In this document: in pieces, positions 4,408 to 48,500 of the stretch
Layout of the letters: every line of letters starts with the position of its first letter
Numbering within the stretch: the first letter of the stretch is position 1
Source: Syntrophomonas sp. DTU019
GTDB taxonomy: Bacteria > Bacillota > Syntrophomonadia > Syntrophomonadales > Syntrophomonadaceae
NCBI GenBank assembly: GCA_913757435.1
Contig: CAJYDM010000003.1
Coordinates: 124,001-188,000, forward strand
Direction of reading: 5' to 3'
Length of the DNA stretch: 64,000 nt
Notes under the pieces: model-generated
Database searches by the model: none
What the model saw: the letters and a program-made list of their open reading frames with translations, nothing else
Told to the model about the DNA's origin: nothing
Position numbers and translations under genes: made by a program

Positions 4408-4705
4408 CCCCAAAATAAAATAAACCCTTCGCTCTCATATTCTGAGACGAAGGGTTATGCTCCGCGGTACCACTCACATTAACGGCTGATGCCGTTCACT
4501 CTATGGGTTGCGAAATCTGTGCGATCCGCCGCCCGCTTCCTGTTAACGGTGAAAGTGCCGGCCGAGCCTACTTTCTAAACGATTTCGGTCGGCGACTCCA
4601 GGATGAGTTCAACTCTCCCCATCGACCGCCTTGCAGCTGATGGCGGTTCTCTGTAGCCCGGGGACAGGCTTACTATTTCCTATCATCGTCTATTTAGTAT
4701 ATACG
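4408..4705 (-). promoter_or_regulatory. T-box leader, probable leucine (CUC) specifier
   Basis: Read on the minus strand, the leader holds a Stem I with AGTA opposite GAA. The specifier triplet CTC (4607-4605) directly follows GAA and is followed by A, as in known specifier loops. The T-box AGTGGTACCGCGG lies within 4462-4480. An intrinsic terminator follows, with stem AACCCTTCG/CGAAGGGTT (4423-4456) and then TTTATTTTATTTT. UGGU in the T-box pairs with a tRNA ending ACCA, and tRNA-Leu has A73. Uncharged tRNA-Leu would therefore stabilise the antiterminator and turn on porGDAB. The T-box call is very safe; the CTC reading is good but manual. Confidence 0.9.
4423..4456 (-). terminator. T-box intrinsic terminator
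   Basis: The stem AACCCTTCG/CGAAGGGTT, extended by CTCTCA-TGAGA pairing in the loop, is followed on the minus strand by a T-rich run. It is mutually exclusive with the antiterminator that uses the T-box sequence immediately upstream. Confidence 0.85.
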
Positions 4706-8306: not shown

Positions 8307-10883
8307 ATGAATACCCACAAGAAACTTAGCAGAAGGTCATTCCTGAAATGGACCGGTATATCCACCGCTATCATGGTGATGGATTCCCCGCTGCGTAACT
8401 TCGATGTAGCCTATGCGTTTGGGGAGCATCCCCAGGAAAAACCACGTTATCTGGTAAAGAAAAAAGTACCGCAGGTATGTGCCCGGGCATGCGAATGTGA
8501 TTGCCATTACGACATCGTAGTCGGGGTGGACCAGGTAACCGGTTTGGAAAGAGCTTTAACTATTGAAGGACGGCCTGAAGACCCGGTAGCCCGTGGCAAG
8601 TATTGCATTAAGGCCATGGGGTTCGTGGATGGCATGTACAACCCCGACCGTTTATTGGTTGCACTAAAAAGAACTAATCCCAAACGCGGTGAGGGTGAGG
8701 ACCCCGGTTGGATTACAGTCAAGACCGAGGATGCAGTCAATGAAATCATCGCCAAGATGAAGACCTACTCCCGTGACGAAATGTTGTTTGCCTGTCCGGG
8801 CGACCCCTATACCAACCGTTTATGCCGTTCTCTGGGGGTTTCCAGAAGCGATCAGAGAACTGAGTGTTTCGGAACTCATTACTATCTGAACTCTTTGATG
8901 ATCACCAATCCTCCCAACAAGTATTATTCCAGCACTTATACGGTTACTCATTCTCTGTGGGGATTTGATTACAGTCAGACCAAATACATGCTGTGGTTCG
9001 GATTCGACTCTTTCAGCAAGACGGCCAAGGCTGGCATCTTAAACCACATCGTGGAAGGCAAGCGCAATGGCACCAAAATCGTATTCTTTAACCCGGTCAG
9101 AACACCATTAACAGATGGCATGGCCGATGAATACTACGCCATCAAGCCTGGAACCGACCTGGCTGTGGCTCTGGCCATGATTAAAGTAATAATTGACAAC
9201 AAGCTGTATCAGACTGATTTCTTGCGAGACTACAGCGATGCCGGCGTGTTGATAGATGTGGCCACCAAAAAACGCCTCACCGATGCGCAGGGCACCTGGC
9301 TGGCCTGGAGTAATACCGAAAAGAAAGCGGTCCCGGTAAACACCGTCAAAGATATGGCCTTCGATGGCGGCCCCTTCACCTTTGATCACAATGGCCAACA
9401 GATAACGGCCAAGCCGGTTTTGCAGTTGCTGCAGGAAAATGTCAAAGACTGCACCCCGGAATGGGCGCAACAGGTCAGTGAAGTGCCGGCAGCGGATATC
9501 GACAGGATCGCCCGTGAGTTTGCCCAGGCCGCACCAACGGTATGCATACCCAATCTTAAACGCGACGCGGCGGGGCCCAATTATTCCAATAGCTGGAGGT
9601 TGATGCAATCCATCAATATCCTGCATATGTTAACCGGCTCTCTGGATCATGATGGAGCGGTATTATTCCTCAGCGGGGTGAAAATCCCCTGGCTGGAAGA
9701 TGTGGATCCCATAGTAAAGCCATACCCGGAACTGCCGGCAAGTCCTGCTGACTATCGCGATCAGTTCCCGGTTACTGACAACATTTATAAGAACAAGGAC
9801 TTCAGCGCACCCGGCCATTACGGCATGGTAGGGCACGGTCTTTATCACAAGAAAAATATAAAGATGCTGTTCTTTAGAGGACCGCATCGCGGACTGTTTG
9901 CCTTGATCCAACCGCAGATGACTGAAGCGGCTATGATGGATATGGACCTGGTGGTCGACTGGAACCTGTACCCGGATGACAATGCCTACTGGTGTGATTA
10001 TGTTCTGCCAGCTCCCCATCAGTATGAAGAATCCAAACTGGACATCAGACAGTATTATCCCAAATGGCCCTGTCTGGTGGGAGGAGACCCGGTGCAAAAA
10101 CCCCCTGGTGATGTCATAGGATGGGGCAAAGTGGCTAACATGATCGGTATGGCTCTGGCGCCTGAATACTGGACCACTGATGGCAGCTCAGATCCGGCTA
10201 AGCTGATTAAGGGTAATATGTATGACCCGGCCCTCAAAGCGGTAGGTGCAGCTGAGACAAAAGCCGAATTTATGAAGGATAAGGACGGTTTCTGGATTGA
10301 TAAGAAACCTTATGAAAACTACAAGACCATCCGTGAAATCGGTTATGGCAGACCTGATGGCCGAGTCAAGATGTATGTTGACGAGTTCGCTGAGGTTGGT
10401 TTTGACGGTTTACCCACCTTCCAACCCCGCTGGACCTCACCGGAAGGAGAATACGAGTTCTCCCTGCTCATCACCAGATCCGGGTGGCACATGCATGCCG
10501 ATCCCAACTTCATTGACAATCCAGTTCTTAATAAGCTCTCGGAGAAAAACCGCGTCGATTGCGTTTGGATCAGCCCCAATGCTGGCAAGAAGCTCAATCT
10601 GCAGAATGGGGACGAAGTCATTCTGGAAACCAACCCCAAGCATATGCCGGAGCTGCCCAGGCCGGTTAAATCCAAAGTCTTCATGTCTTCGCGCATAACC
10701 CGGGATGATTGTGTAATGCTCTTCCACGGCATCGGCCACCGCTCCAAATGGCTAAAGCATGGTGTATGGGGCTACCGCGACGGCGACTTGATTCCGCAGA
10801 AAGATCCGGCTATCTGTAAACAGCATGACCCCACCGGTATGGGCTGGGTTGAGGATGTTTATGTCCGGATCAAAAAGGCCTAG
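8307..10883 (+). CDS. Exported molybdopterin (bis-PGD) oxidoreductase, catalytic subunit
   Basis: The protein has 858 residues from ATG 8307, chosen over 8286 because AGGAG lies seven bases before it. The start is a Tat signal (SRRSFLKWTG, residues 8-17), so it is folded inside and exported. Four cysteines at 58, 62, 66 and 100 (C-x3-C-x3-C-x33-C) would bind a [4Fe-4S] cluster, with spacing as in DmsA/SerA/NarG relatives. The cysteine in RTECFGTHYY is a candidate Mo ligand. C-terminal GDEVILETNP marks the MopB C-terminal domain. The DMSO reductase family includes reductases for S, Se, As and Cl oxyanions and some oxidative enzymes; the substrate here is not evident. Confidence 0.88.
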   Translation: MNTHKKLSRRSFLKWTGISTAIMVMDSPLRNFDVAYAFGEHPQEKPRYLVKKKVPQVCARACECDCHYDIVVGVDQVTGLERALTIEGRPEDPVARGKYCIKAMGFVDGMYNPDRLLVALKRTNPKRGEGEDPGWITVKTEDAVNEIIAKMKTYSRDEMLFACPGDPYTNRLCRSLGVSRSDQRTECFGTHYYLNSLMITNPPNKYYSSTYTVTHSLWGFDYSQTKYMLWFGFDSFSKTAKAGILNHIVEGKRNGTKIVFFNPVRTPLTDGMADEYYAIKPGTDLAVALAMIKVIIDNKLYQTDFLRDYSDAGVLIDVATKKRLTDAQGTWLAWSNTEKKAVPVNTVKDMAFDGGPFTFDHNGQQITAKPVLQLLQENVKDCTPEWAQQVSEVPAADIDRIAREFAQAAPTVCIPNLKRDAAGPNYSNSWRLMQSINILHMLTGSLDHDGAVLFLSGVKIPWLEDVDPIVKPYPELPASPADYRDQFPVTDNIYKNKDFSAPGHYGMVGHGLYHKKNIKMLFFRGPHRGLFALIQPQMTEAAMMDMDLVVDWNLYPDDNAYWCDYVLPAPHQYEESKLDIRQYYPKWPCLVGGDPVQKPPGDVIGWGKVANMIGMALAPEYWTTDGSSDPAKLIKGNMYDPALKAVGAAETKAEFMKDKDGFWIDKKPYENYKTIREIGYGRPDGRVKMYVDEFAEVGFDGLPTFQPRWTSPEGEYEFSLLITRSGWHMHADPNFIDNPVLNKLSEKNRVDCVWISPNAGKKLNLQNGDEVILETNPKHMPELPRPVKSKVFMSSRITRDDCVMLFHGIGHRSKWLKHGVWGYRDGDLIPQKDPAICKQHDPTGMGWVEDVYVRIKKA

Positions 10884-37814: not shown

Positions 37815-38372
<558 letters not shown>

Positions 38373-38386
38373 ATAACATCCCTTTA

Positions 38387-38466
38387 AACTGGTCCAGAGA
38401 GGCCGGCAAGGGAGAAACCCAGCAGACACGGGCACCTTCCTTGCATCAACGGGGAAGGTTTTTTTG
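38387..38466 (+). promoter_or_regulatory. PyrR attenuator 2 (pyrR-pyrB gap)
   Basis: A second PyrR-binding loop (GGTCCAGAGAGGCCGGC, from 38391) matches the consensus TCCAGAGAGGCY almost exactly. A terminator ACCTTCC/GGAAGGT (38434-38459) with seven T residues follows. It separates pyrR from the biosynthetic genes. Confidence 0.88.
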
Positions 38467-38623
38467 TGCCATAAGCCGGGGGATGCCGGATCAGACCATG
38501 GCTTATACAATCGGGATGGCAGAGCAATGGTTTTGTATGCAATGCAGCATAAGCGAATGACAGGCAGCATAGTGGGACGAATGGGGCTTAGTGGCAAAGG
38601 CAGCAGTTAAAGGAGGCTTTAAG

Positions 38624-39565
38624 GTGAAACTGGACCGCAGAAAAGATCTACTGGGCATCAAGGATCTGAGCAGGGAGGAGATCGATCAGATTCTGGATAC
38701 AGCAATACCCATGAAAGACGTTATTAAGCGGGATATAAAAAAGGTGCCCACCTTGAGGGGCAAAGCCATGGTAACAATTTTCTATGAGAACAGCACTCGT
38801 ACCCGTACCTCATTCGAGATCGCGGGCAAATATCTCAGCGCCGATACTGTCAATCTGGCTGTCAATACCAGCAGCGTGCAGAAGGGGGAAAGTCTGCGCG
38901 ATACCCTCAAGACCATAGAAGTGATGGGCTTTGATCTCATGGTGATGCGCCACAGCATGAGCGGTACTCCCCATTATGCGGCCCGCTGCACTAAAATGCG
39001 GGTAGTCAATGCGGGTGACGGGCAAAATGAGCATCCCACCCAGGCCCTCCTGGATATGTTCACCATCAGGGAGCACAAAGGCACCCTGGAAAACCTGAAA
39101 GTGGCCATTGTGGGCGACATCCGCCACAGCCGGGTAGCCCGCTCCAATATATACGGATTATCCCGCTACGGATGTGAGATCCGCGTGGTCGGACCAGCTA
39201 CATTAATCCCCCCGGAGGTGGAAAAACTGGGGGTTAAGAGTTATTACAGCCTGGAGGCGGCGGTCAAGGATGCCGATGTGGTGAACGTTTTGCGCGTGCA
39301 GCGGGAACGGCAGCAAGCCGGCCTGTTTCCCTCCCTGGATGAGTATGCCGAACTTTACATGGTAAGCCCAGAGCGCCTCAAAGGGGCCAAGGATGACGTA
39401 TTAGTACTGCACCCCGGGCCAATGAACCGCGGCGTGGAGATATCCAGCAGCCTGGCCGACAGCACTCAGGCGGTGATCAATGAACAGGTGACCAACGGAG
39501 TAGCAGTGCGGATGGCCATTTTATTCCTGATGATGGGGGGCGCCAAAGATGAAATTGCTGGTTAA
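38624..39565 (+). CDS. pyrB: Aspartate carbamoyltransferase catalytic subunit
   Basis: The protein has 313 residues from GTG 38624, chosen because AAAGGAGG lies seven bases before it; a frame from 38591 adds 11 unlikely residues. Carbamoyl-phosphate site [12 protein letters not shown], then [15 protein letters not shown] and [12 protein letters not shown]. It forms carbamoyl-aspartate. No pyrI partner is nearby, so a class without regulatory chains is expected. It overlaps pyrC by 17 bases. Confidence 0.93.
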
Positions 39566-40841
39566 AGGCGGGCGAGTTATAGACCCGGAAAACGGGCGTG
39601 ACGAGCTGCTCGACATCCTGGTGAATAATGGCAAAATCGCGAAAATAGGCAAGAATATCAGAGCCAAGGATGCACAAATCCTGGATGCTCAAGGCAAAAT
39701 CGTATGCCCCGGCTTTATAGATATACACGTACATCTCCGTGAACCGGGATTTGAATACAAGGAAGACCTGGCCACCGGCACCCGTGCTGCCGCCGCCGGC
39801 GGCTTCACCACGGTGTGCTGTATGCCCAACACTGATCCGGTCATCGACAATATGGCGGTGGCGCGTTTTATCAAGGAGCAGTCCCAGCGCCGCGGAGTAA
39901 TTAACGTGCTGCCCATCGGCAGCATAACTAAGAAACAGGGCGGAGAAGAATTAAGTGAATATACCGACTTGCTGGCAGCGGGTTGTGTGGCTTTCTCGGA
40001 TGATGGCAGACCGGTAATGAGATCGGATGTGATGCGCAATGCTCTGGAATATAGCAAGATGTTCGGGGTACCCCTGTTGACCCACAGCGAAGATGCCTAT
40101 CTGAGTGCCGGAGGGCAGATGCATGAGGGCTTTTACTCCACCTTCTACGGTCTGAAAGGCATTCCAGCGGCTGCAGAAGAAGCCATGGTAGCCCGGGACA
40201 TAATCCTCACCCGCCTCACCGGAGGAAAGCTTCATATCTGCCATGCTTCCACGGCTGGCACCATGGAGTTGATCCGCCAGGCCAAAGCTGAAGGGCTTCA
40301 GGTTACCTGTGAGGTAACCCCCCACCACCTGACCTTGAGTGATGAGCTAGTGGGCAGTTATGACACTGACACCAAGGTGGCTCCGCCACTGCGCAGCCAC
40401 GAACATATCGAGGCCTTAAGGGCGGCTCTCTTAGACGGCACGGTCGACTGCCTGGCTACTGATCACGCCCCTCACCATTTGGAGAGCAAAGATTGCGAAT
40501 ACGACATGGCAGCAGCGGGAATTTCGGGACTGGAAACCGCTGTAGCGGTGATAATGGATCGACTGGTCAACACCGGTATTTTGCCCATAGCGGATTTGGT
40601 CAGGCTGTTTACCGTCGGCCCGGCAGACATAATAAACCTGCCCAAAGGCCGTCTCAACATCAGTGATGCCGCCGACATCACCATAATCGATCCTGAATTG
40701 ACTAGAATCGTGGAACCTGAAAAATTCTATTCCAAGGGCAAAAACACGCCATTTAAAGGCATGCAGCTTACCGGTTGGCCCTGGGCCACCATCGTGGCCG
40801 GCAAACTGGTCTATATTGACGGCAACATAGCGGAGGAGTGA
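39549..40841 (+). CDS. pyrC: Dihydroorotase
   Basis: The 430-residue class I dihydroorotase (amidohydrolase) has zinc motifs [18 protein letters not shown] and HICHAST, and the catalytic Asp in [10 protein letters not shown]. It closes carbamoyl-aspartate to dihydroorotate. It is the second pyr gene, overlapping pyrB. Confidence 0.94.
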
Positions 40842-40848
40842 CATTGAT

Positions 40849-41913
40849 TTGAAAGGCTACCTGGTGCTCGAAAACGGCCGGGTTTTTACCGGAAAACTAT
40901 TGAACGATTGCCTTCGGGCGGGTGGTGAAGTGGTCTTTACCACCGCCATGATCAGCTATCAAGATATCATAACCGACCCTTCTTATTACGGTCAAATAGT
41001 AGTCATGACCTACCCTTTGGTAGGCAATGTAGGCCTGGTAGAAAAGAGTTATGCCTCCCGCGGGGCTATGCTGCGCGGTCTGGTGATGCGCGAAGCTACC
41101 GATTTTCCCAGTCATTATGAGATGGAAACCGATTTGATCAGCTTCCTCAACAAAAGCGAGATAGCGGTGTTGACCGAGGTCGATACCCGCGCTCTGACCC
41201 GGGCGATCCGCCGTGAGGGTAGTATGGGCGGGATTATTACTGATACTATAGATCAATTGGCCGGCTTGATCGCCAAGGCGGAGAACGCCCGCCGGGAATT
41301 GCAGGGAGATCTGGTACAGTATGTTACCCGCAAGAACATTATGAAATTTGGGAACGGAGAAAGCCGCGTGGTCATGCTCGACTTGGGCACCAAGCGCGGC
41401 TATATAGACCTGTTGACCGAGCGTGGCTGCGAAGTGGTAGCGGTTCCCGCCGGCACCACTGCAGTCGAAATCCTGGAACTGAATCCGGACGGGATTATGG
41501 TTTCCGATGGCCCCGGCGACCCTACCGCTATCTCCTATGCCGCTGCCGCCTGCCGGGACCTGTTGGGCAAGAAGCCTATGTTTGGTATTGGTCTGGGGCA
41601 CCAGGTTCTGGCCCTGGCTCTAGGTGCCAGCATCAGCCGCCTGCCTTACGGGCATCGCGGCAGCAACCATCCGGTAAAAGATCTTAAGACGGGGCGGGTG
41701 TACATCACCACCCAAAACCATGGGTTTCAAGTTGAAGAAGATACTCTGGGGAGTAATATTGAAGTGATTCTGCGCAGCCTGAATGACGGGAGCGTGGAAG
41801 GCATCAGGCATCGCCGCCTGCCTATATTTTCGGTGCAGTTTGATCCCGAAGGGTTCCCCGGATACAGTGAAACCGGTTTTTATCTGGACGACTTTGTGGG
41901 TGCGCTGAAATAG
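40849..41913 (+). CDS. carA: Carbamoyl-phosphate synthase small subunit, glutaminase triad lost
   Basis: The 354-residue protein, TTG start, aligns end to end with CarA: N-terminal domain (VVMTYPLVGNVG, DTRALTRAIRREGSMGG), then a class I glutamine amidotransferase domain. The nucleophile elbow, normally GICLGHQ, reads GIGLGHQ (Gly248), and the usual HPE reads DPE (Asp332-Glu334). Cys and His of the triad are both absent while the surrounding fold (GHRGSNHPV, TQNHGF) is kept. It should bind CarB but cannot hydrolyse glutamine. It is in normal operon position between pyrC and carB. Confidence 0.9.
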   Translation: MKGYLVLENGRVFTGKLLNDCLRAGGEVVFTTAMISYQDIITDPSYYGQIVVMTYPLVGNVGLVEKSYASRGAMLRGLVMREATDFPSHYEMETDLISFLNKSEIAVLTEVDTRALTRAIRREGSMGGIITDTIDQLAGLIAKAENARRELQGDLVQYVTRKNIMKFGNGESRVVMLDLGTKRGYIDLLTERGCEVVAVPAGTTAVEILELNPDGIMVSDGPGDPTAISYAAAACRDLLGKKPMFGIGLGHQVLALALGASISRLPYGHRGSNHPVKDLKTGRVYITTQNHGFQVEEDTLGSNIEVILRSLNDGSVEGIRHRRLPIFSVQFDPEGFPGYSETGFYLDDFVGALK

Positions 41914-41937: not shown

Positions 41938-44900
41938 ATGCCATTGGACAGTAACCTCAAAAAGGTGCTGGTCATCGGCTCCGGCCCGATCATCATCGGG
42001 CAGGCCGCGGAGTTCGACTATGCCGGCACACAGGCCTGTAAAGCCATCAAGTCAGAGGGTTTGGAGGTAATTCTATTAAACAGCAATCCGGCCACTATAA
42101 TGACCGACACCGACATTGCGGACCGGGTCTATATGGAGCCTATCACCGTAGAAACGGTGGTAAAAATTCTGGATCGGGAAAACCCCGATGGAATCATCGC
42201 TAATTTAGGCGGGCAGGTCGGTTTGAATATGGCTCTGGCCCTGGACAAGGCCGGTATCCTGCGAGAAAAAGGAGTGCCGGTATTGGGGATGCCCCTAGAT
42301 GCCATCTATCGCGCCGAGGATCGGGAGATGTTCAAAGCCACCATGGAAGAGCTCGGCCAGCCGATTCCGGAGAGCAGCATAGTGCATAGCGTGGGTGAAG
42401 CTCTGCATTTCGCCGCCCAGGTGGGCTATCCTCTGATTGTCCGGCCTGCTTACACTTTGGGTGGCACCGGAGGCGGCACCGCCAATAATGATGATGAACT
42501 GGCCGAGATCGTAACCCGTGGCTTAAAGAGCAGCGCTATCCATCAAGCCCTGATAGAGCGGAGTGTGGCCGGTTACAAGGAAATTGAATTCGAGGTGATG
42601 CGAGACCATAATGACAACTGCATCACCATCTGCAGCATGGAGAACATCGACCCGGTGGGAATACACACCGGCGACAGCATTGTGGCCGCCCCGGCTCAGA
42701 CTTTAACCGACGAAGAGTATCAGATGCTGCGCTTCGCCTCTTTGAAAATCATCCGTGCCTTGAAGATCGCCGGGGGCTGCAACGTGCAATTCGCTCTGGA
42801 TCCCTTCAGCAAGAGATATTTTGTCATCGAGGTCAACCCCCGGGTCAGCCGCTCTTCGGCCCTGGCCTCCAAGGCCACCGGCTATCCTATCGCCACAGTG
42901 ACTACCAAGATCGCCCTCGGCTACAACCTGGATGAAATCCCCAACGCCATCACCGGCAAAACTACTGCCTGCTTCGAACCGGCCATTGACTATGTTGTCC
43001 TTAAGGTGCCGCGCTGGCCTTTTGACAAGTTCGTATTCGGCGACCGCCGCCTGGGTACGCAAATGAAGGCCACCGGTGAGGTCATGGCTATCGACCGCAG
43101 TTTTGAAGCCGCGTTCTTAAAATCCATCCGCTCGTTGGAAATCGGCATTAACGGCCTGCGGCTGCCAGAATTGACCGAACTGAGCGATGTGGAACTGAAA
43201 GCCCGGTTATCCGATGCTGACGATGAACGGATTTTTATCATTGCTGAAGCCTTTGTGCGCGGGGCTTCGATCGAGGAATTGCACCGCATTACCGCTATCG
43301 ATAAATATTTTCTAAAGAAATTTAAAAACATCATAGATTTCTCCAAACGATTGCAAGAGACCCCGTTGGGACTGGATATTCTCTTTGAAGCCAAGAAGAT
43401 AGGGGTCTCTGACAGTGAAATCGCCTGTTTGAAAGGCTGCTGTGAGGATGAAGTGCGCCGTTTGCGCCAATCCTATGGAATTCTCCCCACCTACAAGCTG
43501 GTAGACACCTGCGCAGCTGAGTTCGATGCCGAAACACCCTATTTTTATTCTTGCTATGAGGAGGAAAATGAAGCCGAACATGAGGAGGGGCAGCGCAAAG
43601 TCCTGGTGATTGGTTCCGGTCCCATACGCATCGGCCAGGGTGTGGAGTTTGACTACTGTTCGGTGCACTGTGTGTGGGCATTACGACAGGCCGGAATCAA
43701 GGCCATCATCGCTAACAATAACCCTGAAACGGTAAGCACCGATTTTGACACCTCTGACCGGCTGTACTTTGAACCATTGGTGTATGAAGATGTGATGAAC
43801 ATCATAGAAGAAGAGCGTCCCGAAGGGGTGATAGTGCAATTCGGCGGGCAGACCGCCATCAATCTGGCCAATCCTCTGGCCAGGGCAGGAGTGAAGCTGC
43901 TCGGCACCAGCAATGACAGCATTGATCGGGCCGAGGACCGCAACCGCTTCGACGCCATGGTAGCACAACTGGGCATACCCCGCCCACCCGGAAAAAGCGT
44001 ATTCAACCCTGATGAGGCAGTTTTGGTGGCAAGGCAGATCGGCTACCCGGTCCTGGTCAGGCCTTCTTATGTTCTAGGAGGGCGGGCTATGGAGATCGTG
44101 TACAGTGAAGCAGAACTGCGTCAATATATGCATACTGCGGTCAAGGCCAGCCGAGAACATCCAGTACTGGTGGATAAATACCTTTTGGGCCGTGAGATTG
44201 AGGTAGATGCGGTTTGTGACGGCAGGGAGGTTTTGATCCCCGGCATCATGCAGCATATCGAACGGGCCGGGGTGCATTCCGGGGATAGTATAGCAGTTTT
44301 CCCTGCCTACAGCTTGAGCCCCGCCATCAGGGATAAGGTGGTTGAACACACCACTGCTCTGGCTAGGGAATTGAAGGTGATAGGCCTGATCAACATACAG
44401 TTCGTAGAATTTGAAGATGAACTGTATGTACTGGAGGTCAATCCGCGCTCCAGCCGTACGGTGCCTTTTATCAGTAAAATAACCGGCATCCCGCTGGTCA
44501 AACTGGCTACCGAGATCATGCTGGGCAAAAGTCTTGAAGAACTGGGATACCTGGGCGGATTGTTTGTGACCCCGAATTTCTATGCGGTCAAGGTGCCGGT
44601 ATTCTCCTTCAATAAACTGCAACAGGTGGACATTAACCTGGGGCCGGAGATGAAATCCACAGGCGAGGTGTTGGGGATTGCCCATAGCTTGAACAGCGCC
44701 ATTTATAAGGGGCTGCAATCAGCCGGGGTGGATATCAAGGGTTCCGGCACCATGGTGGTCACGGTATCCGACAAGGACAAAGGCGAAGCCATCCCGGTCA
44801 TAGCGGAATTTGCCGAGCGGGGCTTCAAGATCATCGCCACCGAAGGAACTGCCCGGGCTTTGCGCAATCATGGCATTGAAGTGCAGACGGTCAAAAAGCT

Positions 44901-45162
44901 CAAGGAAGGCTCCCCCAACATTGTGGATCTGATTCGGCAGGGTAAAGTGGATGTGGTGGTGAATACTTTGACTCAGGGTCGCAGGCCGTTCAGCGATGGT
45001 TTCCATATCCGCCGCGCAGCGGTGGAATTAAATGTCCCCTGCCTGACCTCGCTCGATACTTTGAAGGTAATCCTGCAGGTATTGAAAGGCGATGAAGGTG
45101 CTAAGCCTCAAAAAGTGTTAAGCCTGCAGGAATATGTGGCTGAATATCATAGCCAAATTTGA
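41938..45162 (+). CDS. carB: Carbamoyl-phosphate synthase large subunit
   Basis: The protein has 1074 residues from ATG 41938 (GGAGG eight bases upstream). Two ATP-grasp halves are each introduced by [18 protein letters not shown] (residues near 10 and 550). The oligomerisation domain lies between, and an MGS allosteric domain at the C-terminus ([15 protein letters not shown]). It looks fully functional: it phosphorylates bicarbonate, takes up ammonia to give carbamate, then makes carbamoyl phosphate. Confidence 0.95.
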
Positions 45163-45189: not shown

Positions 45190-45972
45190 ATGCCTGCTGT
45201 AGAAAAAGCTTTGGTGGCCGCCCACCAGGAAGTGGCCCAGGGACTGTATGAGATAGAAGTGCTGGCTCCACAAATTGCTTCTGGTGCCAGACCCGGACAA
45301 TTTGTGCACGTTCGTCCTGGAGGGACTAGTGATCCCCTACTAAGACGGCCGCTCAGCCTGTATGATGTGGATCAGGAGCTGGGCAGCATAACCCTGCTTT
45401 ACAAGGTAGTGGGGCGAGGCACGGAACTGCTCAGCCGGGTGAAAAGCCGGGAATATATCGATATGATGGGACCTCTGGGGAGAGGTTTCACTTTGCCTCA
45501 GACTGGGCAAAGCATTCTTCTGATAGGGGGCGGTGTCGGCATAGCCCCCCTGATCTATCTGGCCCGGGTATTAAAGGCGCAGGACTGTACTGTTCAGGCT
45601 GCCTATGGAGCGGCCTCATTGCAGGATGCGGCGGTCTATCAGCGCAAATTTCAGCAACTGGGAATTGAAGCCTGGCCGGCAACTATGGATGGCAGCCTGG
45701 GTTACCAGGGCACGGTGGTGGGACTGTTGCACCAAATGGCACCTGCAATAAAAATCGATATGATTTATACTTGCGGCCCGGAAGGAATGATGAAGGCGGT
45801 CACTGACTATGCCCAGAGCCACCAGATACCCGGAGAGGTCTCCCTGGAAGAGACCATGGCCTGTGGAGTAGGAGCCTGTCTGGGCTGCGCCCGCAAGCTG
45901 AAACCTGAAGATGCCGATTATGCGAAGGTGTGCAAAGACGGGCCGGTCTTCAGCATGGATTTGATGGCCTAA
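45190..45972 (+). CDS. pyrK: Dihydroorotate dehydrogenase electron-transfer subunit
   Basis: The 260-residue protein has an FAD domain (RRPLSLYDVDQELGSITLLYK, broken by its R-P-L-S motif) and NAD site LLIGGGVGIAPL. A C-terminal [2Fe-2S] site follows, ETMACGVGACLGCARK with a later KVCKDG. It couples PyrD to NAD+, defining the class 1B enzyme. Confidence 0.93.
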   Translation: MPAVEKALVAAHQEVAQGLYEIEVLAPQIASGARPGQFVHVRPGGTSDPLLRRPLSLYDVDQELGSITLLYKVVGRGTELLSRVKSREYIDMMGPLGRGFTLPQTGQSILLIGGGVGIAPLIYLARVLKAQDCTVQAAYGAASLQDAAVYQRKFQQLGIEAWPATMDGSLGYQGTVVGLLHQMAPAIKIDMIYTCGPEGMMKAVTDYAQSHQIPGEVSLEETMACGVGACLGCARKLKPEDADYAKVCKDGPVFSMDLMA

Positions 45973-45975
45973 GCA

Positions 45976-46001
45976 ATAATGACCGGTAGACCGGTCATTA
46001 T
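45976..46001. repeat. 12-bp perfect palindrome between pyrK and pyrD
   Basis: ATAATGACCGGT-AG-ACCGGTCATTAT. With no T-run after it, an operator or RNA-processing hairpin is as likely as a terminator. Confidence 0.6.
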
Positions 46002-46126
46002 CTGTGAGGACACAAAGGGACATTTAGTTTTTGCCAACACTGTAATCAGATTGTAGAACAAATATTTTAAGCTGGAATTAGGCCTGTGTTAAAATTGGGT
46101 AAATAATTGGATAGGAGGGCCATACT

Positions 46127-47071
46127 TTGCACAAGGATGCGGCCATATCTAAACCAGGTCCCGATATATCGGTCAACCTGGGTGGGCTGTGGATGAAGAA
46201 TCCCGTAGCGGCAGCGTCGGGCACTTTCGGCTATGGATTTGAATACCAGGATTACATAGATTCCGCTTCTATCGGAGCAGTGATCGTCAAAGGGACCACC
46301 CTGGAGAAACGGGTGGGCAATCCGCCGCCGCGCATCTGTGAGACCGCGGCGGGCATGCTCAATGCCATCGGGTTGGAAAACCCTGGCGTGGAAGTCTTTG
46401 TGACCGAGTACCTGCCCCGGTTGCGCCAGCACGGGGTTACGGTGGTGGCTAACATTGCCGGTAATACCGTGGAGGACTATGAGCATACCGCGGCCATCAT
46501 TGACAAGCAATCCGGGGTGGCGGCTATTGAACTAAACATTTCCTGTCCCAATGTGAAACAGGGCGGGCTGCAGTTCGGAACCGACCCGGCCATGGTGGAA
46601 GCGGTGGTAGCGGCGGTCAAAGCCCGCACCAGCCTGCCGGTGATCCCTAAACTGTCCCCTAACGTCACCGATATCGTTACTATCGCCCGGGCCGCACAGC
46701 GCGGCGGGGCTGATGCCCTGGCCATGATCAATACCCTGTTGGGGATGGCAATAGATATTAAAACTCGCCGTCCGGTGCTGGGCAACGTTTTCGGGGGTTT
46801 ATCCGGTCCGGCCATCAAACCGGTAGCCTTGCGCATGATTTATCAGGTCTATCGGGAAGTGGACCTGCCTATCCTGGGCGGGGGCGGCATTGTCAACACT
46901 GCTGACGCTCTGGAATTTATCATGGCAGGCGCAACCGCGGTGTCGATAGGAACCGGGCTGTTCGTCAATCCAACCTTGCCGGCTGAACTCAGCCTGGGTA
47001 TCAAACAGTATCTGACCGAGCATGGTCTTGATAAGATTGGGGATTTGGTCGGCGCCGCACACCGCTTTTAA
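46127..47071 (+). CDS. pyrD: Dihydroorotate dehydrogenase catalytic subunit (class 1B)
   Basis: The 314-residue protein starts at TTG behind AGGAGGG. It is an FMN TIM barrel with active-site Cys in [16 protein letters not shown]-contact [13 protein letters not shown] and the C-terminal [19 protein letters not shown]. It works with PyrK, oxidising dihydroorotate to orotate with NAD+ in the cytoplasm. Confidence 0.93.
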
Positions 47072-47111
47072 TTAGCTTGAGGGGAACCTAATAACTGGTC
47101 ACACAAGAAGC

Positions 47112-47163
47112 GACGGCATTGTGGACAGGACGGGTGACTGTGGTCAAGCAAAAGAATGCCGTC
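47112..47163 (+). other. Inverted repeat between pyrD and pyrF
   Basis: GACGGCATT (47112-47120) is complementary to AATGCCGTC (47155-47163). The 34-base loop and lack of a T-run make its role unclear. Confidence 0.35.
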
Positions 47164-47202
47164 AAATCTTTAATAACGATTAATACCTGAGGAGGAATGG
47201 CG

Positions 47203-47931
47203 TTGCAGGCGAAGGATAGAATCATTTTAGCCCTGGATGTGGATACCAGGCGCCAGGCTTTGGACCTGGTTCAGGAATTGGCCCCCTTTGTGGGGGTATT
47301 TAAAGTTGGCATGCAATTGTTCAACAGCACTGGACCTGATATTGTTTCGCAAATCAGCGATTACGGCGGTGAGGTCTTTGTGGACTTGAAGTTCCATGAT
47401 ATCCCCAATACGGTAGCGTCAGCAGGCAGGGTCATGACCCGGCTCAACTGTCGTATGTTCAACTGTCATGCGGCCGGCGGCAGGACCATGATGAGCGAAC
47501 TGAGTCGAGCGGTGGAGCAAGAAGCGGCCAGGCGAGGCCTGGCAGTTCCCCTCACGCTGGCGGTGACGGTATTGACCAGTATTGCCCAGAGTGAACTGGA
47601 AAACGATATGTTGATTTCGAACTGGAGCGTTGAAGAAGTGGTAGTCAAATGGGCTCTGGCTGCCAAAGAATGCGGCATCGGCGGAGTGGTATGTTCACCT
47701 CAGGAGATAGCCGCGATCAGAGCCGCCTGTGGGCCGGAATTCAAGATCGTCACCCCGGGAATCAGACCGGCTTGGTCAGAGAGCAATGATCAGAAACGCA
47801 TCACCACGCCCAGGCAGGCCATTGAACTGGGGGCCGATTATATAGTTATCGGGCGGCCGATTACCGCAGCAGCTGATAAAGTTTCTGCAGCGCAGAAGAT
47901 AATTGAGGAATTGGAGGCAGCATCATGCTAG
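47203..47931 (+). CDS. pyrF: Orotidine-5'-phosphate decarboxylase
   Basis: The protein has 242 residues from TTG 47203: GGAGG at 47191-47195 is seven bases from this TTG but only one base from the ATG at 47197, so the TTG is favoured. The catalytic motif VFVDLKFHDIPNTVA is complete, followed by VTPGIRPA and GADYIVIGRPI. It forms UMP. It overlaps pyrE by 7 bases. Confidence 0.92.
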   Translation: MQAKDRIILALDVDTRRQALDLVQELAPFVGVFKVGMQLFNSTGPDIVSQISDYGGEVFVDLKFHDIPNTVASAGRVMTRLNCRMFNCHAAGGRTMMSELSRAVEQEAARRGLAVPLTLAVTVLTSIAQSELENDMLISNWSVEEVVVKWALAAKECGIGGVVCSPQEIAAIRAACGPEFKIVTPGIRPAWSESNDQKRITTPRQAIELGADYIVIGRPITAAADKVSAAQKIIEELEAASC

Positions 47932-48500
47932 AAAAATCACAGGCCATAGACATATTCAGCCAGGCCGGAGCGCTTTTAGAGGGCCATTTCCGGCTCACCT
48001 CGGGAAGGCACAGCAATCAGTATATGCAGATGGCCCAGGTATTGAAATATCCGGCGTTCACCGAGCAACTAGCCCGGCATCTGGCCGAGGCTTTCCGGGA
48101 TGACGGGGTTGAACTGGTGGTCGGACCGGCTATGGGGGGCATTGTGGTTGCCTATGAAGTAGCCCGCCAGCTGGGAGTACCGGGTTTCTTCACCGAGAGA
48201 GAAAATGGCCTTATGGCCTTGAGGCGCGGTTTCGTCATCGAACCGGGACAGCGCGTCCTGGTGGTGGAAGACGTGGTCACCACCGGGGGATCGGTCAAAG
48301 AGGTGATCGAGTTGGTTCAGCAGCATGGCGGCCAGGTAGTCGGGGTAGGGGTACTGGTCGATCGCAGCAACGGTCAGGTGGACTTCGGGGCAAAGCTTGA
48401 GGCGGTTCTGACTTTAGACATCAGCAGCTGGGAAGCTGACGAATGCCCGCTGTGCCAGGAAGGCAGACTGCCGGTGGTAAAACCCGGCAGCCGGACTTAA
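47925..48500 (+). CDS. pyrE: Orotate phosphoribosyltransferase
   Basis: The 191-residue PRTase has the PRPP motif VLVVEDVVTTGGSVKEV, HFRLTSGRHSNQYMQ and MGGIVVAYEVARQLG. It converts orotate to OMP for PyrF. It carries a C-terminal extension with CPLCQEG, common in a clostridial subgroup. It is the last recognised pyr gene. Confidence 0.92.
   Translation: MLEKSQAIDIFSQAGALLEGHFRLTSGRHSNQYMQMAQVLKYPAFTEQLARHLAEAFRDDGVELVVGPAMGGIVVAYEVARQLGVPGFFTERENGLMALRRGFVIEPGQRVLVVEDVVTTGGSVKEVIELVQQHGGQVVGVGVLVDRSNGQVDFGAKLEAVLTLDISSWEADECPLCQEGRLPVVKPGSRT

Follow-up and report, generated by a model that had tools for sequence, protein, structure and literature searches.

The window analysed here is a stretch of 64,000 nucleotides from Syntrophomonas sp. 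DTU019, whose genome is assembled as 3.2 Mb in 17 contigs with a completeness of 100. Its forward strand carries a pyrimidine biosynthesis operon in the order pyrR, PyrR-binding site, pyrB, pyrC, carA, carB, pyrK, pyrD, pyrF and pyrE. The first gene, pyrR (37818..38372, +), was assigned from its open reading frame (ORF) and the conserved operon order, and is followed by a PyrR-binding RNA, the attenuator of the pyr operon (38377..38467, +), which matches Rfam family RF00515 at 56.7 bits, above the gathering score. ORFs for pyrB, encoding aspartate carbamoyltransferase (38591..39565, +; 77-81% identity in relatives), and for pyrC, encoding dihydroorotase (39549..40841, +), lead up to a gene for the small subunit of carbamoyl-phosphate synthase (CPS), termed carA1 here (40849..41913, +), which was identified by its ORF, by alignment and by fold match and which starts with TTG preceded by GGAGGAG. 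The downstream carB (41938..45162, +; ATG at 41938) encodes by ORF and alignment a full-length synthetase subunit. It is the only carB of the genome, in which a search for a second copy gave a single PF02787 match and a query with an orphan CarB matched the pyr carB only. The ORFs of pyrK, pyrD, pyrF and pyrE occupy 45190..48500 (+). A sequence-only reading of this DNA had described an intact CarB in a complete pyr operon, and this is borne out in that CarB is full length and the operon looks complete from pyrR to pyrE. Elsewhere in the window a T-box leader (RF00230, 105 bits) lies on the minus strand at 4440-4695.

CarA1 is homologous to E. coli CarA along its full length (E about 1e-77 against 1A9X/1C30). 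It combines, as a CPS small subunit should, a PF00988 domain (6.2e-43) with a class-I amidotransferase domain (PF00117, 4.6e-40) and is encoded beside CarB. An AlphaFold model of the protein (mean pLDDT 67.6, with good values confined to the catalytic half) served for fold assignment and not for pocket geometry; its best match was E. coli CarA (1JDB/1A9X), with human CPS1 next. An active class-I amidotransferase carries the Cys of GxCxGxQ, but the elbow of CarA1 (residues 246-252, context PMFGIGLGHQ) reads GIGLGHQ, with Gly248 (codon GGT, 41590..41592, +) in place of the nucleophile, Cys269 of E. coli. In the triad region (residues 330-334, QFDPE) the expected HPE has become DPE: the catalytic His353 is replaced by Asp332 (codon GAT, 41842..41844, +; context SVQFDPEGFPGYSE), while Glu355 is retained as Glu334. 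Both losses had been claimed in the sequence-only reading, and the ORF and the alignment with E. coli agree with it. The other class-I amidotransferases of this genome with readable triads, namely GuaA, PyrG, a HisH-like enzyme and a second CarA (CarA2, see below), keep both Cys and His. Three further replacements were mapped by alignment: Asp220 (E. coli Asn240; 41506..41508, +), a fixed change beside the oxyanion-hole glycines, Tyr339 (E. coli Pro360; 41863..41865, +) in the tunnel-wall loop, and Ser272 (41662..41664, +) at the ammonia-tunnel residue that is Gly293 in E. coli and Gln318 in human CPS1 (PMC4655335). By sequence the rest of the CPS is intact, the pattern expected of an ammonia-dependent CPS that has lost a glutaminase catalytic residue, although CarA1 and CarB are separate ORFs and not the single fused chain of CPS I. 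The glutaminase chemistry of CarA1 has almost certainly been lost, and no known mechanism would let an enzyme built with such a subunit depend on glutamine, which makes the use of ammonia the natural inference.

The pyr-operon type of CarA1 was found through the family at 65-84% identity, the named matches in public genomes being Syntrophomonas and Syntrophomonadaceae, and by motif and sequence a Gly-form CarA is present in 34 of 54 family genomes, spread over 18 genera. Residues were compared between 28 distinct pyr-operon CarA proteins (the clade) and 36 Cys-type CarA proteins, and are given in E. coli numbering. Position 269 is Gly in 28/28 of the clade and Cys in 36/36 of the Cys-type proteins, position 240 is Asp in 28/28 against Asn in 36/36, position 353 is Asp in 27/28 against His in 35/36, and position 360 is Tyr in 28/28 against Pro in 35/36. 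At position 293 the clade has Thr (14), Ser (12) or Gly (2). Glu355 is invariant in the clade and present in all 36 Cys-type proteins. Conservation of Gly248 and Asp332 among relatives, proposed in the sequence-only reading as a check, is therefore found in practically every protein of the clade. The clade's Gly269 codons are varied (8 GGC, 8 GGG, 6 GGT and 6 GGA) and both Asp codons are used at position 353. The dN/dS of carA1 against genus relatives is 0.085-0.091, close to or below the 0.082-0.171 of the intact CarA2, and in a tree built without the substituted columns the clade forms one group with full SH-aLRT support. These comparisons show that CarA1 has genuinely lost its glutaminase, that the loss is old and that purifying selection maintains it.

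Substitutions of the same kind were sought across 84,980 species genomes by a scan for the Gly elbow, which yielded at least 119 loci in a sample picked by the Gly motif. Raw counts of GxGLGHQ from a whole-phylum scan proved useless, most of those inspected outside the family being unrelated frames or the motif GAHxGVGLGHQ, which we take to be that of an Obg-type GTPase, and motif matches were kept only where a CarA match was present. Most of the listed loci are true CarA, usually beside carB. Gly-type CarA among the listed matches come from Sporosarcina, Lederbergia, Siminovitchia, Allobacillus, Aliibacillus, Virgibacillus, Kroppenstedtia, Yaniella, Pelotomaculum, Thiopseudomonas, gut Clostridia, Bacteroidales, Coriobacteriia and a Hadesarchaea bin. 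Some of these genera are known for urea breakdown. Example loci are L131, L135, L146 and L183 for Sporosarcina, L133, L138 and L168 for Lederbergia, L097 for Streptococcus agalactiae ATCC 13813 and L184 for the Hadesarchaea bin; some of these genes sit in pyr operons. About 10 changes between Cys and Gly are needed on the tree, of which at least 2-3 are forced by well-supported branches. The catalytic His is kept in some of these proteins (HPE in Sporosarcina) and is otherwise Tyr, Gln, Glu or Thr. Since the scan selected for Gly only, the loss of His in most of them, for which there was no selection, is an independent sign of glutaminase loss. By the evidence of these sequences, a Cys-to-Gly CarA has arisen repeatedly in bacteria outside the family, and with several origins the Gly-for-Cys form is no isolated curiosity.

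Among the residues of E. coli CarA, Ser47, Gly241, Gly243, Gln273, Asn311 and Gly313 are taken here to be those that hold glutamine. The clade shows no variation at Ser47, Lys202, Gly241, Gly243, Gln273, Asn311 and Glu355 and almost none at Gly313, such that its CarA still has the residues of a glutamine-binding site. The 74 Gly-type CarA of other lineages keep Ser47 in 37/74, Asn311 in 55/74, Glu355 in 34/74 and His353 in 18/74. With its pocket kept where several of these residues decay in other Gly-type proteins, the clade has thus removed the chemistry but retained the site. To call CarA a structural or allosteric partner, as the sequence-only reading did, is not specific enough: the glutamine pocket is preserved, catalysis is removed and residues of the tunnel loop are changed. 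The changes at positions 353, 357 and 360 fall in the loop that begins at the catalytic His, and the E. coli G359F mutant (1M6V) is altered at a position in that same loop. This mutation reportedly opens an escape route for ammonia. In human CPS1 the old tunnel is blocked by Gln318 in place of Gly293 and external ammonia has another path, and E. coli CPS variants whose tunnel is blocked or perforated remain normally active with external ammonia (PMC4655335). Taken together these facts make it plausible that the pocket and tunnel of CarA1 have been remodelled for the entry of ammonia.

A second carA gene is present in the same genome (carA2; G000:C1:901619-902665). Its product is 49% identical to CarA1 and retains intact GICLGHQ and SVQFHPE motifs. 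It heads a nitrogen cluster composed of carA2, glnB and amtB, with nadE on the other strand, and genes for an ANTAR response regulator and glutamine synthetase (glnA). The window genome has two carA genes to one carB, as do six relatives (G001, G004, G010, G013, G017 and G032). The sequence-only reading had named a second active carA, combined with lack of conservation of the first, as grounds for abandoning it; the second gene exists, but CarA1 is conserved through the 34 genomes and 18 genera. Its claim of an ammonia-dependent synthetase stands for the loss, which is real and selected, and needs the qualification that the genome, which also encodes an intact CarA2, is not limited to ammonia. 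An intact carA next to glnB-amtB was found in 18 family genomes, often with ANTAR-glnA; 14 of these have no adjoining carB and 4 have one (carA2-carB-glnB-amtB, in one case with nadE before). Two relatives with single-contig genomes, G023 (2,936,195 bp) and G005 (2,360,781 bp), have a dead CarA as their sole CarA, with one carB and a complete pyr operon, and there glutamine cannot be the nitrogen donor for the CPS step. In two near-complete genomes, G439 and G018, an orphan CarB was found and no CarA was detectable (no PF00988 match). Lone carB genes were also observed as monocistronic second copies without an adjoining carA at L225:5393-8641 and at L226-L232 (G003, G024, G366, G033, G006, G007, G434 and G230), and those at L259 and L260 (G439 and G018) are the only CPS gene found there. 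A lone carB is a candidate for a stand-alone, ammonia-dependent CarB by its gene content, and in several relatives the orphan second carB could be the true partner of CarA2.

The region upstream of carA2 carries an element, RGTATACWGTATWA, about 165-185 bp ahead of the gene, which is exact in 9 loci and has one mismatch in 2; 0.9 Mb of other loci held no exact copies. Its positions include L034:11440, L035:3878, L036:7885, L040:6524 and L249:7734, and L038 holds a further exact copy, at 8587, upstream of dapF and a gene for an aminotransferase. The element was considered as a shared nitrogen operator and rejected, as it occurs in exact form once in the window genome and near-matches number 8 against 9 in the control; with that single exact copy it defines no nitrogen regulon by itself. 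Downstream of it in the leader come a sigma-70-like promoter and a terminator, whose 5' arm shares sequence with a hairpin that has a hexaloop of the A1/G4 type (AATGAC, AAAGGC or AATGAG). This terminator-overlapping hairpin is present in most carA2 loci, and an ANTAR protein is encoded in the cluster. Such A1/G4 loops are recognised by ANTAR proteins, and in other bacteria ANTAR target RNAs precede genes for PII, ammonium transporters and glutamine synthase (PMC3369931). A scan for the dual ANTAR motif was positive in 1/10 carA2 leaders, which is not above shuffles, the first hairpin not being found, and in the carA2 clusters the one Rfam match was a group II intron, with neither a riboswitch nor any other leader family found. 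With a PyrR site on the pyr operon and a nitrogen-type context around carA2, the two carA genes look set, by their surroundings, to answer different signals, carA1 pyrimidines and carA2 nitrogen.

It is probable, taking the scheme as a whole, that an ammonia-fed CarA1-CarB serves pyrimidine synthesis and that a nitrogen-controlled CarA2 supplies a glutamine-fed form when ammonia is scarce. CarA1, its glutaminase chemistry gone (Cys269Gly, His353Asp), would be kept by selection as the partner of CarB in the PyrR-controlled operon, and CarB bound to it would make carbamoyl phosphate from free ammonia. That CarA1-CarB uses ammonia is very likely from the residues lost and kept. In the absence of glutamine E. 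coli CPS works only at very high ammonia (PMC6245113), so that CarA1-CarB must be assumed to be better at using it. Ammonia would probably enter through the remodelled pocket and tunnel loop of the small subunit, by a direct path to CarB, or by both; Asp240, Asp353 and Glu355 could attract ammonium, and Tyr360 together with an aromatic residue at 357 may reshape the tunnel wall. When ammonia is scarce CarA2, whose gene is clustered with those for PII, AmtB and glutamine synthetase, would be made, presumably on induction by nitrogen limitation, and would form the glutamine-fed enzyme by sharing the single CarB in the window genome or with its own CarB in some relatives. A switch of nitrogen donor by exchange of CarA1 and CarA2 on one CarB is, from the gene content, a serious possibility, if not quite a probable one.

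The pattern of conserved and decayed residues also bears on other roles for CarA1. It could be a pure scaffold, catalysis having decayed where ammonia was plentiful and CarB needing a small subunit for its stability or assembly. The decay of triads and pockets in many convergent Gly-type CarA fits this, as do the two near-complete family genomes that seem to dispense with CarA, but the pocket of the clade is not decaying, dN/dS is 0.09 and Asp353, Tyr360 and Asp240 are fixed, and we regard the idea as conceivable but rather unlikely. A role as a sensor of glutamine (or glutamate), which CarA1 would bind without hydrolysis to tune the ammonia-dependent activity of CarB, would explain why the clade keeps its pocket residues with little or no variation when convergent Gly-type CarA have lost several of them, and the fixation of Asp353 in 27/28 argues against simple relaxation. 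Such conservation may instead reflect folding and the interface with CarB, however, and the pocket is made more negative by Asp240 and Asp353, which leaves a sensor doubtful. The one CarB and the intact CarA2 of the window genome would also allow CarB always to work with CarA2, with CarA1 as an inhibitor or as a relic without enzymatic role, but this is very improbable given that the complete relatives G005 and G023 have CarA1 only and no CarA2, and that CarA1 lies in the pyr operon beside carB in the loci read and is under strong purifying selection. The related notion of a drifting pseudogene, with CarA2 as the main copy, is ruled out by conservation, by dN/dS and by the complete genomes that have the dead copy only. 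A sequencing or assembly error at both codons, which the sequence-only reading had allowed might undo it and which the oddity of two changes within one gene might suggest, has virtually no chance of being right and is ruled out, relatives in dozens of independently assembled genomes carrying both changes in varied codons.

Vertebrates are already known to have a CPS that uses only ammonia and whose glutaminase domain is dead; in human CPS1 the Cys is replaced by Ser294 (PMC4655335). Vertebrate CPS1 (human 5DOT/5DOU) resembles CarA1-CarB in that both are ATP-grasp CPS enzymes which have kept a class-I glutaminase domain but lost its catalytic function, and the tunnel position Gly293 is changed in both, to Gln318 in CPS1 and mostly to Ser or Thr in the clade. 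Unlike CarA1-CarB, CPS1 consists of a single fused chain that N-acetylglutamate activates, and it is located in mitochondria as part of the urea cycle, whereas CarA1 is a bacterial subunit on a chain of its own, in which Cys has become Gly and His has become Asp, encoded in a PyrR-controlled operon and in many genomes accompanied by an intact spare. E. coli CarAB (CPS II; 1JDB, 1A9X, 1C30) shares with CarA1-CarB the two-subunit architecture and the residues of the glutamine site, but in the CarA1 clade Cys269 and His353 are lost and Pro360, Asn240 and usually Gly293 are changed. The E. coli mutants C269S (1C30) and G359F (1M6V) represent an engineered dead glutaminase and an altered tunnel loop, whereas the changes in the clade are natural, combined and ancient. 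Bacterial CPS has been described as glutamine-dependent, the ammonia-only form with dead glutaminase being vertebrate CPS1 (PMC6022934), and no earlier report of a glutaminase-dead bacterial CarA was found in the openly accessible literature, subscription journals lying outside the search. The subunit-exchange reading would be new. A conserved, naturally dead bacterial CarA with repeated origins represents an independent evolutionary replay, in a two-subunit enzyme, of the step from CPS II to CPS I, with stages preserved in which Cys is lost and His kept, both are lost, or CarA is missing. Sharing of one CarB by CarA1 and CarA2, if real, would be a clear case in which the nitrogen source is chosen by swapping the glutaminase subunit. 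In annotation and metabolic models, the 'glutamine-hydrolyzing carbamoyl-phosphate synthase' of syntrophic butyrate oxidisers such as Syntrophomonas should be treated as an ammonia-using enzyme.

A parallel case to the CarA pair is offered by the paired NH3-type and glutamine-type NAD synthetases, both of which are encoded in the window genome. The glutamine-type NadE (553 aa, with a glutaminase domain; L034:14744-16405) lies inside the carA2 nitrogen cluster, and a short NadE of 259 aa without a glutaminase domain is encoded elsewhere (G000:C5:185324-186019; L238:1453-2232). In NadE the whole enzyme is duplicated, whereas in CPS this applies to the small subunit only. Upstream of the nitrogen cluster, shortly past the gene for ribosomal protein S9, a group II intron with a reverse transcriptase occupies L034:4966-6937.
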